The notes under the pieces: generated by a model
Database searches by the model: none
Told to the model about the DNA's origin: nothing
What the model saw: only the letters and a program-made list of their open reading frames with translations
Made by a program: the position numbers and the translations under genes
Shown: one piece after another, positions 35,177 through 47,326 of the stretch
How positions within the stretch are numbered: position 1 is the stretch's first letter
Layout: each line of letters starts with the position of its first letter
NCBI RefSeq assembly: GCF_001509405.1
Contig: NZ_CP011502.1
Location: 2,666,001 to 2,730,000 of the forward strand
Origin: Aeromicrobium erythreum
Lineage (GTDB): Bacteria; Actinomycetota; Actinomycetes; Propionibacteriales; Nocardioidaceae
Length of the DNA: 64,000 nt
Direction: 5' to 3'

Positions 35177-36574
35177 ATGAGCGAGAACGACACGGCCTGG
35201 CGCATCGAGCACGACACCATGGGTGAGGTGAGGGTCCCCGCCGACGCTCTCTGGCGGGCCCAGACGCAGCGCGCGGTCGAGAACTTCCCGATCTCCGGCA
35301 CCCCGATCGAGCCGGCCCAGATCAAGGCGCTCGCGCAGATCAAGGCCGCGTGCGCCCGGGCGAACGCCGAGCTCGGCATCCTCGACGGCGACCTCGCGGA
35401 CGCGATCGTCGCGGCCGCGCAGGAGGTGGCCAGCGGCGCCCACGACGCGCACTTCCCCATCGACGTCTTCCAGACCGGCTCCGGCACGTCGAGCAACATG
35501 AACACCAACGAGGTCATCGCCACGCTCGCGACCCGCTCGCTCGGTCGCGACGTGCACCCGAACGACCACGTCAACGCGTCGCAGTCGAGCAACGACGTCT
35601 TCCCGACGTCGATCCACGTGGCCGCGACGGCGTCGACCGTCAACCAGCTGCTGCCCGACCTCGACCACCTCGCGCAGTCGCTCGAGCGCAAGGCCGAGGA
35701 GCTCGCCGAGGTCGTCAAGTCGGGTCGCACGCACCTGATGGACGCCACGCCCGTGACGCTCGGCCAGGAGTTCGCCGGCTACGCCGCGCAGGTGCGCAAG
35801 GGCATCGCCCGCGTCGAGCGTGCGCTGCCGTCGGCCGCCGAGGTCCCGCTGGGCGGCACCGCCGTCGGCACCGGCATCAACACCCCCGCCGGCTTCCCGC
35901 AGCGCGTCATCGAGATCCTCGCCGCCGACACCGGCCTGCCGATCACCGAGGCCACCGACCACTTCGAGGCGCAGGGCGCGCGCGACGGGATCGTCGAGCT
36001 GTCCGGCGCGCTGCGCACGGTCGCGGTCAGCCTCACGAAGATCTGCAACGACCTGCGCTGGATGGGCTCGGGCCCGCGCACCGGCCTGGGCGAGATCAAC
36101 CTGCCCGACCTGCAGCCCGGGTCGAGCATCATGCCCGGCAAGGTGAACCCCGTCCTGCCGGAGGCGACGCTCATGGTCTGCGCGCAGGTCATCGGCAACG
36201 ACGCGACCATCACCTACGCCGGCGCGTCGGGGTCGTTCGAGCTGAACGTGCAGCTGCCCGTCATCGGACGCAACGTCCTGGAGTCGATCCGGCTGCTCGG
36301 CAACACCTCGCGCGTGCTCGCCGACCGGTGCGTCGACGGCATCACCGCCAACGTCGAGCGCTGCCTCGAGCTGGCGGAGTCGAGCCCCTCGGTCGTGACG
36401 CCCCTCAACCGCCACATCGGCTACGAGAACGCCGCGAAGGTCGCGAAGAAGGCCGTCAAGGAGCGCAAGACGATCCGCGAGGTCGTGGTCGAGGACGGCT
36501 ACGTCGAGCGCGGCGACCTGACCGAGGCCGAGCTCGACGCCGCCCTCGACGTCATGAGCATGACCCACCCCTGA
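35177..36574 (+). CDS. fumC: class II fumarate hydratase
   Basis: A 465-residue oxygen-stable FumC-type enzyme. The superfamily signature [10 protein letters not shown] is at residues 315-324; [13 protein letters not shown] and [15 protein letters not shown] near the N-terminus form the active site. It corresponds to Rv1098c. Immediately 3' lies palindrome array 1, so its transcription probably ends there. Confidence 0.95.
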
Positions 36575-36579
36575 CCAGC

Positions 36580-37820
36580 GTCCAGCTCCGCTGGTCGAGC
36601 AGGCGCCGCGCGTGAGGAACGAACGCCGCGTCGCCGTATCGAGACCACCCGCGAACGGCTCAGCGCGGGCCAACCCCCAGCGACAGCCCAGAGTGGTCTC
36701 GATACGCACGGAGCACGCTCGTCCCTCGCGGCTCCGCGCTACTCGACCAGCGGAACCCGCCGCTGGTCGAGTAGTCAGGACGAGCTTGCGAAGTCCTGAC
36801 GTATCGAGACCACCCGACAACGGCTCAGCGTGACCCAACCACCAGCGTCTGCTTGGAATGGTCTCGATACGCCCGGAGCACGCTCGTACCTCGCGGCTCC
36901 GCGCTACTCGACCAGCGGCAGGATCCGCCGGTCGAGTAGTCAGGACGAGCTTGCGAAGTCCTGACGTATCGAGACCACCCGGCAACGGCTCAGCGCGACC
37001 CAACCCCCAGCGACAGCCCAGAGTGGTCTCGATACACCTCCCCTCGCTGGCGCTCGTGGAGGCACTCGACCAGCGGCAGGATCCACTGGTCGAGTAGCAG
37101 GGACGAGCTTGCGAAGTCCTGCGTATCGAGACCACCCGACAACGGATCAGCGCGGGCCAACCCCCAGCGACAGCCCAGAGTGGTCTCGATACGCCCGGAG
37201 CACGCTCGTCCCTCGCGGCTCCGCGCTACTCGACCAGCGGCAGGATCCGCTGGTCGAGTAGCAGGGACGAGCTTGCGAAGTCCTGACGTATCGAGACCAC
37301 CCGACAACGGCTCAGCGCGACCCAACCACCAGCGTCTGCTTGGAATGGTCTCGATACGCCCGGAGCACGCTCGTCCCTCGCGGCTCCGCGCTACTCGACC
37401 AGCGGCAGGATCCGCTGGTCGAGTAGTCAGGACGAGCTTGCGAAGTCCTGCGTATCGAGACCACCCGGCAACGGCCCAGCGCGACCCAACCCCCAGCGAC
37501 AGCCCAGAGTGGTCTCGATACGCCCGGAGCACGCTCGTCCCTCGCGGCTCCGCGCTACTCGACCAGCGGAACCCGCCGCTGGTCGAGTAGTCAGGACGAG
37601 CTTGCGAAGTCCTGACGTATCGAGACCACCCGACAACGGCCCAGCGCGACCCAACCCCCAGCGACAGCCCAGAGTGGTCTCGATACACCTCCCCTCGCTA
37701 GCGCTCGTGGAGGCACTCGACCAGCGCAACCCGCCGCCGGTCGAGCAGTCAGGACGAACGTGCGAAGTCCTGACGTATCGAGACCACCCGGCAACGGCCC
37801 AGCGCAGGCCAATCCCAGCG
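36580..37820. repeat. palindrome array 1: seven ~165-bp mosaic units
   Basis: Fills the gap between convergent fumC and the DUF2079 gene. GGTCTCGATAC recurs at 36695, 36860, 37025, 37182, 37347, 37511 and 37676, with spacing 165, 165, 157, 165, 164, 165. Each unit reads GGTCTCGATACG, module X, CTACTCGACCAGCGG, short centre, CCGCTGGTCGAGTAG, module Y, CGTATCGAGACCACC, linker Z. The boxes form two nested inverted repeats, and X and Y are themselves imperfect hairpins, for example TCAGGAC...GTCCTGA. Two X modules and at least three linkers are mixed. Open frames through it repeat the same peptide and are not genes. Confidence 0.9.
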
Positions 37821-37829
37821 GCACCGCGT

Positions 37830-39176
37830 TCAGGCGCGGCGGGCGAGCTGGTAGCCGTCGGCGTCCCAGACGGTCACCCAGGTGCCGCCGAAGGTCTGCT
37901 CGGCCCAGGTGCGGGCGTCCGGGGGCGAGCCGACGCCGGCCCACTGGTCGAGCAGGACGTACTCCGGCTCGCCGTCGGGGAGCGGGGCGGTGCCGACCGT
38001 GCCGAGCCAGTAGACGTCGTGGTCCGTGGCGAGGTGCGTGATGACGCCGATGTCGGTCACGACCGACGCGCCGTCGGGCACCATGTCGACCACGCGCTGG
38101 GCGACCGCCGCGCGGTCGGGCACCTCGTACGTCTCCCCCCGGGTCAGCGCCCACAGCGGCGTCGACGGCAGCAGCGCGAGCGACACGACGAGCGCGGGCA
38201 CCGCCGTCCACCGCACGGGCGGGTAGCGCCGCATGGTGTCGACGGCCGCGACGAACACGATCGGCATGAGGAGCAGCGAGTAGTGCCAGTCGGTGCCCCA
38301 GTAGTACGGGTTGTCGCCGACGAAGCGCCACGCGAACGTCGGCAGCACGAGCAGCACCCAGGGCGACCCGAGCGCCGCCAGACCGGTCACCGCGAGCGTC
38401 ACCAGCACCGTGAGGGCCTTGCGACCCGGCTCGTCGAGCAGGGTCGCGACCACGCCGCGGTCGCCCCCGACGCTGGACGCGTAGTCGTAGACGCCGCCGG
38501 GGTTCACCGACGGCAGCACGACGAGCACGACGAGCGCCGCGCTCACCACGCCGGCCGCCGCGAGCAGCGTGCCACGACGACGCTCGCCGGCGAGCATGAG
38601 CACGAGCCCGATGACGAGCACCGTCGCGCCCATGTCCTCCTTGACGAGCAGGAGCGGCAGCGACCAGCCCACGACGGCGTTCCAGCGGCGGTCGAGGTAC
38701 GCCGAGCCTGCCAGCGCGAGCAGCGGGGCGCCGAACGCGACCTCGTGGAAGTCCGACTGCACGGCCGCGGAGATGCCGAAGGAGATGCCGTAGGCGACGG
38801 CGAGCATCGCGCCCGCCCACGGACCGGCGTGCCGCACCGCCAGCCGGCTGACGACCAGCACCGACACCCCGATCAGCACGGCCTGCGCGACGAGCAGGGT
38901 CTGGGCCGACGGCCACAGCCGGTAGAACGGCGCCACGAGCGCCGTGATCGGCGAGAAGTGGTCGCCGAGGATGTTGAAGCCCGGGCCCTTGATGTCGACG
39001 ATCGGCAGTCCGAGGTGCGCGTAGCCGCGGATCGCCTGCTCGAAGATCGCGTTGTCCCAGGAGGTGGGGTCGAAGCGGCGGAACCGCAGCAGCGACAGCG
39101 TCGTGTAGGCGGCCGTGCACAGCAGGGCCCAGAGGGACGGCAGGGACCGTGCGACGGTCCCGAGGCGCGCGCTCAC
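37830..39176 (-). CDS. DUF2079 polytopic membrane protein
   Basis: A 448-residue protein with about ten helices. The opening (FDPTSWDNAIFEQAIRGYA, then GPGFNILGDHFSPI) is the DUF2079 hallmark, a GT-C-glycosyltransferase-like membrane family. Its GTG overlaps the ABC ATPase stop (GTGA), making it the last gene of a five-gene coupled operon, and it ends against palindrome array 1. A link to glycan or sugar handling is inference from the operon and the fold resemblance. Confidence 0.85.
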   Translation of the reverse strand: MSARLGTVARSLPSLWALLCTAAYTTLSLLRFRRFDPTSWDNAIFEQAIRGYAHLGLPIVDIKGPGFNILGDHFSPITALVAPFYRLWPSAQTLLVAQAVLIGVSVLVVSRLAVRHAGPWAGAMLAVAYGISFGISAAVQSDFHEVAFGAPLLALAGSAYLDRRWNAVVGWSLPLLLVKEDMGATVLVIGLVLMLAGERRRGTLLAAAGVVSAALVVLVVLPSVNPGGVYDYASSVGGDRGVVATLLDEPGRKALTVLVTLAVTGLAALGSPWVLLVLPTFAWRFVGDNPYYWGTDWHYSLLLMPIVFVAAVDTMRRYPPVRWTAVPALVVSLALLPSTPLWALTRGETYEVPDRAAVAQRVVDMVPDGASVVTDIGVITHLATDHDVYWLGTVGTAPLPDGEPEYVLLDQWAGVGSPPDARTWAEQTFGGTWVTVWDADGYQLARRA

Positions 39177-44996: not shown

Positions 44997-45199
44997 GTCT
45001 GACTCCCTGCGAAGAACCCGCGCGCCCCTGCGCCGGCCCTTCCCTACTCGGTGGGTGTGGGGCGGCTGGGCTCCGGGGCGAGCATCAACACCCTCGCAAC
45101 GTACGTCCGCCCCCGTGCCCGGGCGCGGCGACACGCTGCGCGTCATGTAACGCCGAGATGAACTCTGCGCACCCACCACTCCGCGCATCCCGCCAGCGC

Positions 45200-47326
45200 G
45201 GGCCCAGCCCCAGCGTCGGCGTGGAGTGGTCTCGATACGCCCGGAGCACGCTCGTCCCTCGCGGCTCCGCGCTACTCGACCACCGGAATGTTCCGCTGGT
45301 CGAGTAGTGGCCACGCGCGAGGAACGAGCGCCGTGGCCGCGTATCGAGACCACCCGGCAACAGCCCAGCGCGAACCAACCCCCCAGCGCCCGCTTGGAGT
45401 GGTCTCGATACGCCGCCGCCAGCTCCTCCGTCGCGACGTCGGCTACTCGACCAGCGAAACGTTCCGCTGGTCGAGTAGCGGCGACGGCGAGCGCCAGCGA
45501 GCACGTCGCCGCGTATCGAGACCACCCGGCAACAGCCCAGCGCGAACCAACCCCCCAGCGCCCGCTTGGAGTGGTCTCGATACGCCGCCGCCAGCTCCTC
45601 CGTCGCGACGTCGACTACTCGACCAACGACACCCACCGCTGGTCGAGTAGCGGCGACGGCGAGCGCCAGCGAACTCGTCGCTGCGTATCGAGACCACCCG
45701 GCAACAGCCCAGCGCGAACCAACCCCCCAGCGCCCGCTTGGAGTGGTCTCGATACGCCGCCGCCAGCTCCTCCGTCGCGACGTCGACTACTCGACCAACG
45801 ACACCCACCGCTGGTCGAGTAGCGGCGACGGCGAGCGCCAGCGAACTCGTCGCTGCGTATCGAGACCACCCGGCAACAGCCCAGCGCGAACCAACCCCCA
45901 GCGACAGCCCAGAGTGGTCTCGATACACCTCCCCTCGCTGGCGCTCGTGGAGGCACTCGACCAGCGGAAGGTTCCGCTGGTCGAGTAGCGGCGACGGCGA
46001 GCGCCAGCGAGCACGTCGCTGCGTATCGAGACCACCCGGCAACAGCCCAGCGCGAACCGACCGCCAGCGTCGGCGTGCAGTGGTCTCGATACGTCACCTC
46101 ACGCCTCGTCCCTCGGCGGAGGCGACTACTCGACCAGCAACACCCACCGCTGGTCGAGTAGCGGCGACGGCGAGCGCCAGCGAGCACGTCGCTGCGTATC
46201 GAGACCACCCGGCAACAGCCCAGCGCGAACCAACCGCCAGCGCCCGCTTGGAGTGGTCTCGATACGCCGCCGCCAGCTCCTCCGTCGCGACGTCGACTAC
46301 TCGACCAGCGACACCCACCGCTGGTCGAGTAGCGGCGACGGCGAGCGCCAGCGAGCACGTCGCTGCGTATCGAGACCACCTGGCAACAGCCCAGCGCGAA
46401 CCAACCCCCAGCGACAGCCCAGAGTGGTCTCGATACGCCGCCGCCAGCTCCTCCGTCGCGGCGTCGACTACTCGACCAGCGGACCCCACCGCTGGTCGAG
46501 TAGCGGCGACGGCGAGCGCCAGCGAGCTCGTCGCTGCGTATCGAGACCACCCGGCAACAGCCCAGCGCGAACCAACCCCCAGCGACAGCCCAGAGTGGTC
46601 TCGATACATCTCCCCTCGCTGGCGCTCGTGGAGGCACTCGACCAGCGGTGGGGTCCGCTGGTCGAGTAGTCCGACCGGCGACGAAGGAGCCCCGGTCGGA
46701 CGTATCGAGACCACCCGGCAACGGCCCAGCGCGGACCGGCCCCCAGCGACAGCCCAGAGTGGTCTCGATACGCCGCCGCCTGCTCCTTCGTCGCGACGTC
46801 GGCTACTCGACCAGCGACACCCACCGCTGGTCGAGTAGCGGCGACGGCGAGCGCCAGCGAGCACGTCGCCACGTATCGAGACCACCCGGCAACAGCCCAG
46901 CGCGAACCAACCCCCAGCGACAGCTCAGAGTGGTCTCGATACGCCCGGAGCACGCTCGTCCCTCGCGGCTCCGCGCTACTCGACCAGCGGTATCGCTGGT
47001 CGAGTAGCGGCGACGGCGAGCGCCAGCGAGCACGTCGCTGCGTACCGAGACCACCCGGCAACAGCCCAGCGCGAACCGACCCCCAGCGACAGCCCAGAGT
47101 GGTCTCGATACATCTCCCCTCGCTGGCGCTCGTGGAGGCACTCGACCAGCGGTGGGGTCCGCTGGTCGAGTAGTCCGACCGGCGACGAAGGAGCCCCGGT
47201 CGGACGTATCGAGACCACCCGGCAACAGCCCAGCGCGAACCAACCCCCCAGCGCCCGCTTGGAGTGGTCTCGATACGCCGCCGCCAGCTCCGTCGTCGCG
47301 ACGTCGACTACTCGACCAGCGACAGC
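45200..47326. repeat. palindrome array 2: thirteen ~165-173-bp mosaic units
   Basis: Lies between the cis-prenyltransferase 3' end and the phoH2 5' side. GGTCTCGATAC recurs at 45228, 45401, 45573, 45745, 45916, 46082, 46255, 46426, 46597, 46761, 46932, 47101 and 47266. The boxes match array 1, but the modules differ: X variants such as CGCCGCCAGCTCCTCCGTCG or CACCTCCCCTCGCTGG, Y variants such as GGCGACGGCGAGCGCC or TCCGACCGGCGACGAAGG (a hairpin with CCGGTCGGA). The last CTACTCGACCAGC ends six bases before the uppS-type stop codon. The stretch 44997-45200 holds only the phoH2 leader. No gene is seen in the array. Confidence 0.9.

Follow-up and report, generated by a model that had tools for sequence, protein, structure and literature searches.

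A combinatorial family of REP/BIME-type palindromic arrays in Aeromicrobium, without a recognisable RAYT gene

The window analysed here is a stretch of 64,000 nucleotides (C1:2666001-2730000) from the Aeromicrobium genome G000, a single contig of 3,629,239 bases (~3.63 Mb) that starts at dnaA (62-1651, gene named from sequence). In this window, the gap between the stop codons of two convergent genes, fumC and a gene for a DUF2079 membrane protein, is fully occupied (36575-37829) by an array of palindromic repeats. Its seven complete elements have the structure A-X-B-loop-B'-Y-A' and are accompanied by seven full 48-bp linkers; the repeat at the left end is degenerate and the linker at the right end truncated. 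According to Tandem Repeats Finder, the array has 7.2 copies with a period of 165. The Aeromicrobium arrays are a family of the REP/BIME type (repetitive extragenic palindromes and bacterial interspersed mosaic elements), and among the membership features tested only one, an associated gene for a REP-associated tyrosine transposase (RAYT; Y1, HUH), was not found in 49 Aeromicrobium genomes. The features of the locus, in window coordinates, are as follows.

36575..37829, + strand: whole array; linker polarity +, with ACCCGG..GAGT on the + strand
36573..36646, - strand: first repeat, partly degenerate, B'-hairpin-A', overlapping the fumC stop codon (TGACCAGCG)
36647..36694, + strand: segment between the first repeat and element 1
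36695..36811, + strand: element 1, A - X (CGGAGC stem) - B - loop - B' - Y (TCAGGAC stem) - A'
36812..36859, + strand: segment between elements 1 and 2
36860..36976, + strand: element 2, X CGGAGC, Y TCAGGAC
36977..37024, + strand: segment between elements 2 and 3
37025..37133, + strand: element 3, X CCTCC, Y arms GCAGGAC / GTCCCTGC in the A-to-B reading
37134..37181, + strand: segment between elements 3 and 4
37182..37298, + strand: element 4, X CGGAGC, hybrid Y with a TCAGGAC arm and a GTCCCTGC arm
37299..37346, + strand: segment between elements 4 and 5
37347..37462, + strand: element 5, X CGGAGC, hybrid Y with a GCAGGAC arm and a GTCCTGAC arm
37463..37510, + strand: segment between elements 5 and 6
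37511..37627, + strand: element 6, X CGGAGC, Y TCAGGAC
37628..37675, + strand: segment between elements 6 and 7
37676..37785, + strand: element 7, X CCTCC (loop variant CGCTAGCG), Y TCAGGAC (loop variant)
37786..37829, + strand: last linker, truncated, reaching the stop codon of the DUF2079 gene
35177..36574, + strand: left neighbour, fumC (Lyase_1 + FumaraseC_C)
37830..39092, - strand: right neighbour, DUF2079 membrane protein gene
45193..47325, + strand: second array of the same family, 12 linkers, polarity +, between genes for a PhoH-like protein and undecaprenyl diphosphate synthase, both on the minus strand

An earlier note on this DNA, made from its letters, had described a mosaic palindromic array, and the seven complete elements with modules swapped between conserved boxes bear this description out. 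Two hairpins, those of elements 4 and 5, are hybrids with arms from two Y types, and the Y module of element 3 is the GCAGGGAC allele, with one arm shorter by one base. With at most one mismatch, the window contains 41 matches to GGTCTCGATAC (1.19 expected) and 35 to CTGGTCGAGTAG (0.32 expected). A search of Rfam 15 with positions 36500-37900 gave nothing above the gathering score, merely sub-threshold miRNA matches.

In the whole genome, 336 exact GGTCTCGATAC boxes (176+160) are grouped in 43 clusters, and the reversed box, used as a control, has no match. Each repeat consists of box A (GGTCTCGATACG), a hairpin with a variable stem, and box B (CTACTCGACC), which reads GGTCGAGTAG on the opposite strand and so places GTAG at the foot of the hairpin. 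A B box was found behind 331 of the 336 A boxes, and the module between them has at least 23 bases in 326, the five sites with a "module" of 1-2 bases being parsing failures. The hairpin foot carries GTAG in 263 of the 326 parsed repeats (81%) and GTGC in 44 of the remaining 63. At 311 of the 336 sites the module has one of only four loop types (108, 88, 71 and 44 sites), and five 7-base left arms were each seen with two of these types. Two repeats joined by the polar linker Z, which is exactly 48 bp long in 124 of 141 cases, form the doublet B'-Y-A'-Z-A-X-B, and doublets follow each other in tandem, head to tail.

The class assignment rests on this architecture. The repeats are short imperfect palindromes in high copy number, and 39 of the 43 clusters are intergenic according to a home-made gene call based on a codon model; box orientation alternates in multi-box clusters with few breaks, at regular spacing and in tandem, as in BIMEs. 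Stem variants stay complementary: in five varying groups of equal length and loop, 71-95% of the cells pair, as compared with 50-79% after arm shuffling, the distinct sequences being related and hence not independent events. Four of six groups pair better than in any of 500 arm shuffles, a fifth, with 7 distinct sequences, equals the highest shuffle, and the sixth is invariant. The family is unevenly distributed, with 202 of the 336 boxes (60%) in the chromosome quarter 2.70-3.63 Mb.

Several other repeats adjoin the family. A second small palindromic repeat with a CCCGCAAGCGGGAGGTGCCCCCAG core is nested in A/B hairpin loops at G000:C1 69779, 930978, 931475, 994044 and 2817675, and also occurs at 3379955-3380181 as three copies in tandem, spaced 113 bp (scan of 42% of G000). 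A variant of box A, the GTCGCGGCTACG...GACGGCTCCA hairpin after GGTCTCG, adjoins different modules at 266521, 994572, 3465944 and 3555140. An often single subfamily of the GGTCTCGATACAG-hairpin-CACTCGACC type lacks the Z linker and in some cases lies at array ends; its sites are listed below.

G000:C1 379748, 475311, 927081, 1386616, 2290423, 2797644, 3008299, 3466486: GGTCTCGATACAG/CACTCGACC subfamily

To describe how the modules are combined, they were clustered at an edit distance of 0.22, with 4 of 128 elements excluded (cluster without a linker, or module below 20 nt). Once the arrays are oriented by the linker, the X and Y pools are almost disjoint: 3 of 248 modules lie in the minority slot. 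Across the linker, Y and X are statistically independent (85 pairs; mutual information 0.249 vs 0.212 after shuffling, p=0.22), and 24 distinct X-Y family pairs occur. Across the B loop, X and Y are mildly associated (p<=0.001 globally, ~0.009 within arrays), and within the 3' half of Z several columns are associated with the adjacent X, among 17 columns tested with no correction for multiple testing. The slot rule extends to two close relatives, G028 and G039, where 3 of 143 modules of ten slot-specific families lie in the opposite slot; the shared family x8 there has 4 X and 7 Y members. Module pairing is thus combinatorial but not free. The earlier proposal that pieces recombine independently is largely right: it holds for pairing across Z, with limits set by the slot-specific pools, the association across the B loop and the Z-X linkage; the fixed X-Y-Z combinations that it named as counter-evidence were not seen, as combinations vary. 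As to its large branched fold, a branched junction of separate hairpins is possible by inspection, but the predicted DNA fold of two units is one long imperfect hairpin.

The arrays were then followed into relatives. Loci with the neighbouring DUF2079 gene number 56, the two at 97% identity being Aeromicrobium sp. CnD17-E and a Propionibacteriales metagenome-assembled genome; the next loci are mostly from Aeromicrobium, followed by Mumia, Streptomyces and others. The stretches around G028 and G039 arrays were compared by blastn with 42% of G000. Beyond the repeats themselves, 20 of 20 G028 stretches and 18 of 19 G039 stretches were mapped onto G000, and most of the arrays coincide with G000 array sites; at least two lack a G000 counterpart at the site (G028 near 3012 kb, G039 near 3421-3425 kb). 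At 18 loci studied in detail, the place and, where readable, the polarity are conserved, and modules and copy number mostly differ. At locus 2711352, for example, G000 has 12 linkers with mainly X9/y6, G028 has X1/y5 units, and G039 has X9, X10 and X11 with y6/y5. At the fumC/DUF2079 locus, seven linkers in G000 correspond to 1-2 in G028 and G039.

Exact box counts range from 0 (11 genomes) to 336 over 49 Aeromicrobium genomes, and no exact A box was seen in the available flanks of 11 more distant Aeromicrobium loci. The Z-A junction was found in both G028 and G039, and seven other A-box-rich Aeromicrobium genomes tested lack it. In a sample of 296 genomes from the phylum, 16 contain at least one A-gap-B match, and clear multi-copy A/B sets were found in G000 and in two genomes of another family, G311 (34) and G354 (27). 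The repeats of the latter two share their boxes and some loops (CTCCTTCGTCG, CTCGCTGGCGCTCG) with G000. At 11 of 20 G311/G354 loci examined, two repeats form a doublet with the A boxes inside over a short spacer, which points to the doublet across the linker as the basic unit.

The linker gives each array a direction, which was compared with the direction of replication, with the terminus assumed at the chromosome midpoint. In G000, one direction relative to replication is shared by 24 of 31 arrays (two-sided p=0.0033), or by 26 of 31 if the terminus is placed at 2.26 Mb instead. Agreement depends on the linker count, with thresholds picked post hoc: 21/24 arrays with at least two linkers, 20/22 with at least three, 16/16 with at least four and 13/13 with at least five, and 8 of 15 among arrays with fewer than four (midpoint terminus). 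By hand reading with the midpoint terminus, 15 of 21 mapped arrays agree in G028 and 15 of 20 in G039, and the multi-linker arrays on G039 contigs C4, C21, C22 and C26 are consistent within each contig. As a possible explanation of polarity, the folding energies of the two strands differ little (-43.5 vs -45.6; 31 elements). Polarity directed by transcription was rejected: the 20 co-directional arrays split 7/6/4/3, with no relation.

Polar chromosome landmarks such as KOPS and Chi sites are known, and the 24 of 31 arrays that follow their replichore could be read as landmarks selected to point from origin to terminus. We consider this extremely improbable: only 31 arrays are involved, below four linkers their orientation is random, the seven box-rich genomes mentioned above lack the Z junction, and no protein is known to read Z.

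The same bias bears on the question of a mobiliser. The RAYT-like transposase for which the earlier note had suggested looking was not found: at E<=0.01, the PF01797 (Y1_Tnp) profile matches nothing in the 49 Aeromicrobium genomes, the best match in G000 scoring 12.1 bits, below the cut-off. Overall, 5 of 98 relatives have a match at this threshold, and the control for the search was positive in 6 of 14 genomes. Neither G311 nor G354, which carry multi-copy A/B repeats, has a Y1_Tnp match at E<=0.1. The PF04986 profile (Y2, IS91-type) matched in none of seven genomes, a weak negative whose control was seen in only 1 of 14 genomes and below the cut-off. The arrays might nevertheless be ordinary GTAG REPs once mobilised by a RAYT that is lost or beyond the search, and left over from its activity on the lagging-strand template. 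The GTAG at the foot of most hairpins and the paired inverted repeats would fit, and the replichore-biased polarity suits the single-strand, replication-coupled enzymes treated in passages of PMC6006769. The tandem REP arrays of Pseudomonas fluorescens SBW25 likewise run forward on one side of the genome and reverse on the other, with five forward arrays at ~2 Mb and six reverse at ~4 Mb in the array section of PMC3116915. Set against the empty Y1_Tnp searches, both in the genus and in the other family that bears A/B repeats, this origin seems possible and rather doubtful.

A different helper was suggested by the genes next to some arrays. In G000, an array lies directly 5' of 4 of 11 DUF222 matches, and linker polarity equals the gene strand in all four; these genes encode 435-451 aa and are 86-89% identical in DNA. 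Their positions are given here.

G000:C1 265459, 931658, 992974, 1858045: DUF222 subfamily with an array directly upstream (at 2218 kb, a gene remnant)

The gene that is a remnant at 2218 kb in G000 is present in both G028 and G039. By coordinates, the arrangement of the four G000 genes recurs at 5 of 10 DUF222 matches in G028 and 5 of 11 in G039. In G022 (11 matches), A/B repeats occur within ~500 bp upstream of 4 of 6 genes examined, one of the misses having only 102 bp of upstream sequence; in G036, they precede 2 of 4 genes examined, one of which has almost no upstream sequence, and two more of eight by lists. Three of the seven G000 arrays that disagree with their replichore are composite DUF222-array loci or the remnant of one. 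A DUF222 protein with an HNH-like C-terminal motif might nick or cut A/B repeats, so that repair from another array shuffles modules and carries array and gene together to new sites in a homing-like manner, as by RAYTs for classical REPs. The controls do not follow this pattern. DUF222 matches are more numerous in three REP-free genomes (16-20) than in six REP-rich ones (8-13), and an A box within 600 bp upstream was seen in 0 of 15 genes examined in REP-free genomes and 0 of 5 in G005. In G046, it was seen in 0 of 10 examined out of 13 genes, three of which have a lone B box ~65 bp upstream, and no DUF222 relative lies within ~3 kb of any of 20 G311/G354 repeat loci. Adjacency was thus seen in G000, G028, G039, G022 and part of G036 and not in G046 or G005 or at the G311/G354 loci, and a helper gene flanked wherever the repeats occur, as in REPtrons, was not observed. 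Moreover, the gene may merely have landed in arrays, the G000, G028 and G039 loci are mostly common by descent, and Pfam assigns DUF222 only, the HNH-like motif being seen by eye. Because the controls failed, we regard a helper role of DUF222 proteins as highly improbable and keep it only as a weak lead.

As a separate observation, a GAACATACGTTC-like motif precedes many DUF222 genes in REP-free Aeromicrobium genomes (L282-L294); it resembles an SOS box.

Gene context offers another possible role. Position between convergent genes, which the earlier note had pointed out, is correct at fumC/DUF2079 and is no rule: of the 43 clusters, 24 lie between co-directional genes, 12 between convergent and 3 between divergent ones, and 4 inside a called open reading frame. 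Compared with gaps above 30 bp in 0.96 Mb of G000, divergent gaps are depleted (3/39 vs 110/455, p=0.017) and convergent gaps marginally enriched (12/39 vs 81/455, p=0.055). No intrinsic-terminator-like site was predicted in 36400-38000 (0.6 in shuffles), and a terminator between convergent genes was rejected on this ground and on that of the varied setting. By analogy with E. coli BIMEs, the arrays could serve the host at gene 3' ends as a barrier to convergent transcripts, an mRNA 3'-end protector or a supercoiling site. At a number of loci, the first repeat indeed begins no more than tens of bases after a stop codon, and the gap statistics and stem covariation point the same way. Against this, 24 of 39 intergenic clusters are co-directional, and no terminator-like site accompanies the array. 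The array is not needed, because copy number at the fumC/DUF2079 locus falls from seven linkers to 1-2 in the two close relatives and an exact A box is absent from 11 of 49 Aeromicrobium genomes. A host function of this kind therefore seems unlikely to us. In our view they are for the most part self-perpetuating DNA that is tolerated close to the 3' ends of genes, any benefit to the host being putative.

One doublet lies in a coding sequence: at G000:C1:3054838-3057399 (- strand), it forms, in frame, the linker of a fused cobyrinate-synthase/aminotransferase gene (named from sequence; boxes 3055907-3055977). The same linker position holds another element in G039 and other repeats in G027 and G003.

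Taken together, the arrays probably form a REP/BIME family that lacks a recognisable RAYT, expands where it lies and has its modules shuffled through homologous exchange. Arrays would lengthen and shorten in place through replication-coupled tandem duplication, by slippage or template switching at hairpins, and growth may be easier in one orientation to the fork. Module swapping would proceed through homologous exchange in register, or through gene conversion, among units as well as among arrays; the breakpoints would fall within the 5' half of Z and near the B boxes. Stem pairing could be maintained by templated correction of the hairpin or by selection for it, and the original spread would have needed a mobiliser, either unknown or lost. 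A more elaborate version, in which a RAYT-less REP system combines lengthening in one orientation, a two-deck hairpin library kept by slot and nuclease-initiated reshuffling between arrays, possibly helped by DUF222, we consider improbable as a whole.

Several points weigh against growth in place with homologous shuffling. Seven of the 31 G000 arrays are polarity exceptions (931117, 1859224, 2218455, 3055918, 3259840, 3402952 and 3418829), as are 6 of 21 in G028 and 5 of 20 in G039. The G028 arrays with at least four linkers agree in only 3 of 5 cases; the two that disagree are those at 3402 kb (4 linkers) and 2218 kb (5 linkers), the latter agreeing only with a terminus beyond 2218 kb. The linker-number threshold followed the data, the terminus position is assumed, GC skew being too weak to place it, and the three species share arrays by descent and are not independent samples. 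Modules of y13, which carry a nested insertion, lie in the X slot in 5 of 6 cases in the relatives and in 0 of 2 in G000. Shuffling was deduced from sequences only, covariation could be produced by mutation (quasi-palindrome correction) as well as by selection, and a transposase outside PF01797 and PF04986 may have escaped detection.

The interest of the family lies in the combination of these properties. The REP literature consulted attributes GTAG repeats to RAYT enzymes and deals chiefly with Proteobacteria, besides some other phyla; in Actinomycetota, an abundant family of GTAG type whose enzyme was not found makes it possible to test whether REP arrays persist and spread by recombination and replication alone. 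Near-random, slot-specific pairing together with turnover of units at fixed orthologous sites provides a natural record of repeat recombination, and the orientation bias, with its parallel in Pseudomonas fluorescens, makes the growth of tandem REP arrays directly testable.

The literature was searched for related repeats. In the full text of 5.39 million open-access papers, the sole match to the box letters is an unrelated potassium-channel paper. No literature linking RAYT with Actinobacteria was found, nothing related to Aeromicrobium palindromic repeats appeared by title and abstract start, and no such family of extragenic palindromic repeats in actinobacteria appeared by title among the matches listed. 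The portion of the RepRanger survey seen in PMC12306157 includes three Actinomycetota, none of them Aeromicrobium. The earlier concern that the family might be an already described actinobacterial repeat was thus not realised, as no described family with these boxes was found in a search that covered mainly open-access papers. To the extent of these searches, the new features are the phylum of the host, the slot rule, the turnover of units at fixed loci and the lack of a recognisable enzyme in a REP-rich genus.

Among known systems, BIME-2 arrays also have mosaic modules and strain polymorphism. Unlike BIME-2, the Aeromicrobium arrays have as their variable module the hairpin itself between two fixed boxes, their modules are slot-specific, they carry one polar 48-bp linker, they belong to a different phylum and no recognisable Y1 transposase accompanies them in the 49 genomes of the genus searched. 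The BIME-2 of E. coli and Salmonella resemble them in their oppositely oriented pairs of palindromic repeats, in tandem between genes, as far as the relevant part of PMC2817692 describes them. The REP13E12/DUF222 repeats of Mycobacterium tuberculosis share the multi-copy DUF222 genes, one subfamily of which adjoins arrays in Aeromicrobium. REP13E12 is not known to be linked to palindromic A/B repeats. The genome of P. fluorescens SBW25, which has RAYTs, also contains tandem arrays. These GI/GIII arrays resemble ours in their alternating REPs with fixed spacings of 112 and 72 bp and in array orientation opposite on two genome sides, whereas module shuffling and a dependence on array length are not mentioned in section 12 of the paper describing them (Bertels and Rainey 2011, PMC3116915). 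The name REP13E12, in the passage of PMC10589994 that uses it, denotes the gene repeat itself. There is also a likeness to the GTAG-tagged REP superfamily (Di Nocera et al. 2013, PMC3733652), for which the corresponding sections report GTAG at one hairpin end, complementary stem alternatives, few loop formats, head-head and tail-tail dimers, and tandemly reiterated dimers. The main text of that paper, where the word "Actinobacteria" does not occur, distinguishes 24 families by stem and loop; in contrast, Aeromicrobium has a single family in which many stems and four loops are set between conserved flanking boxes.
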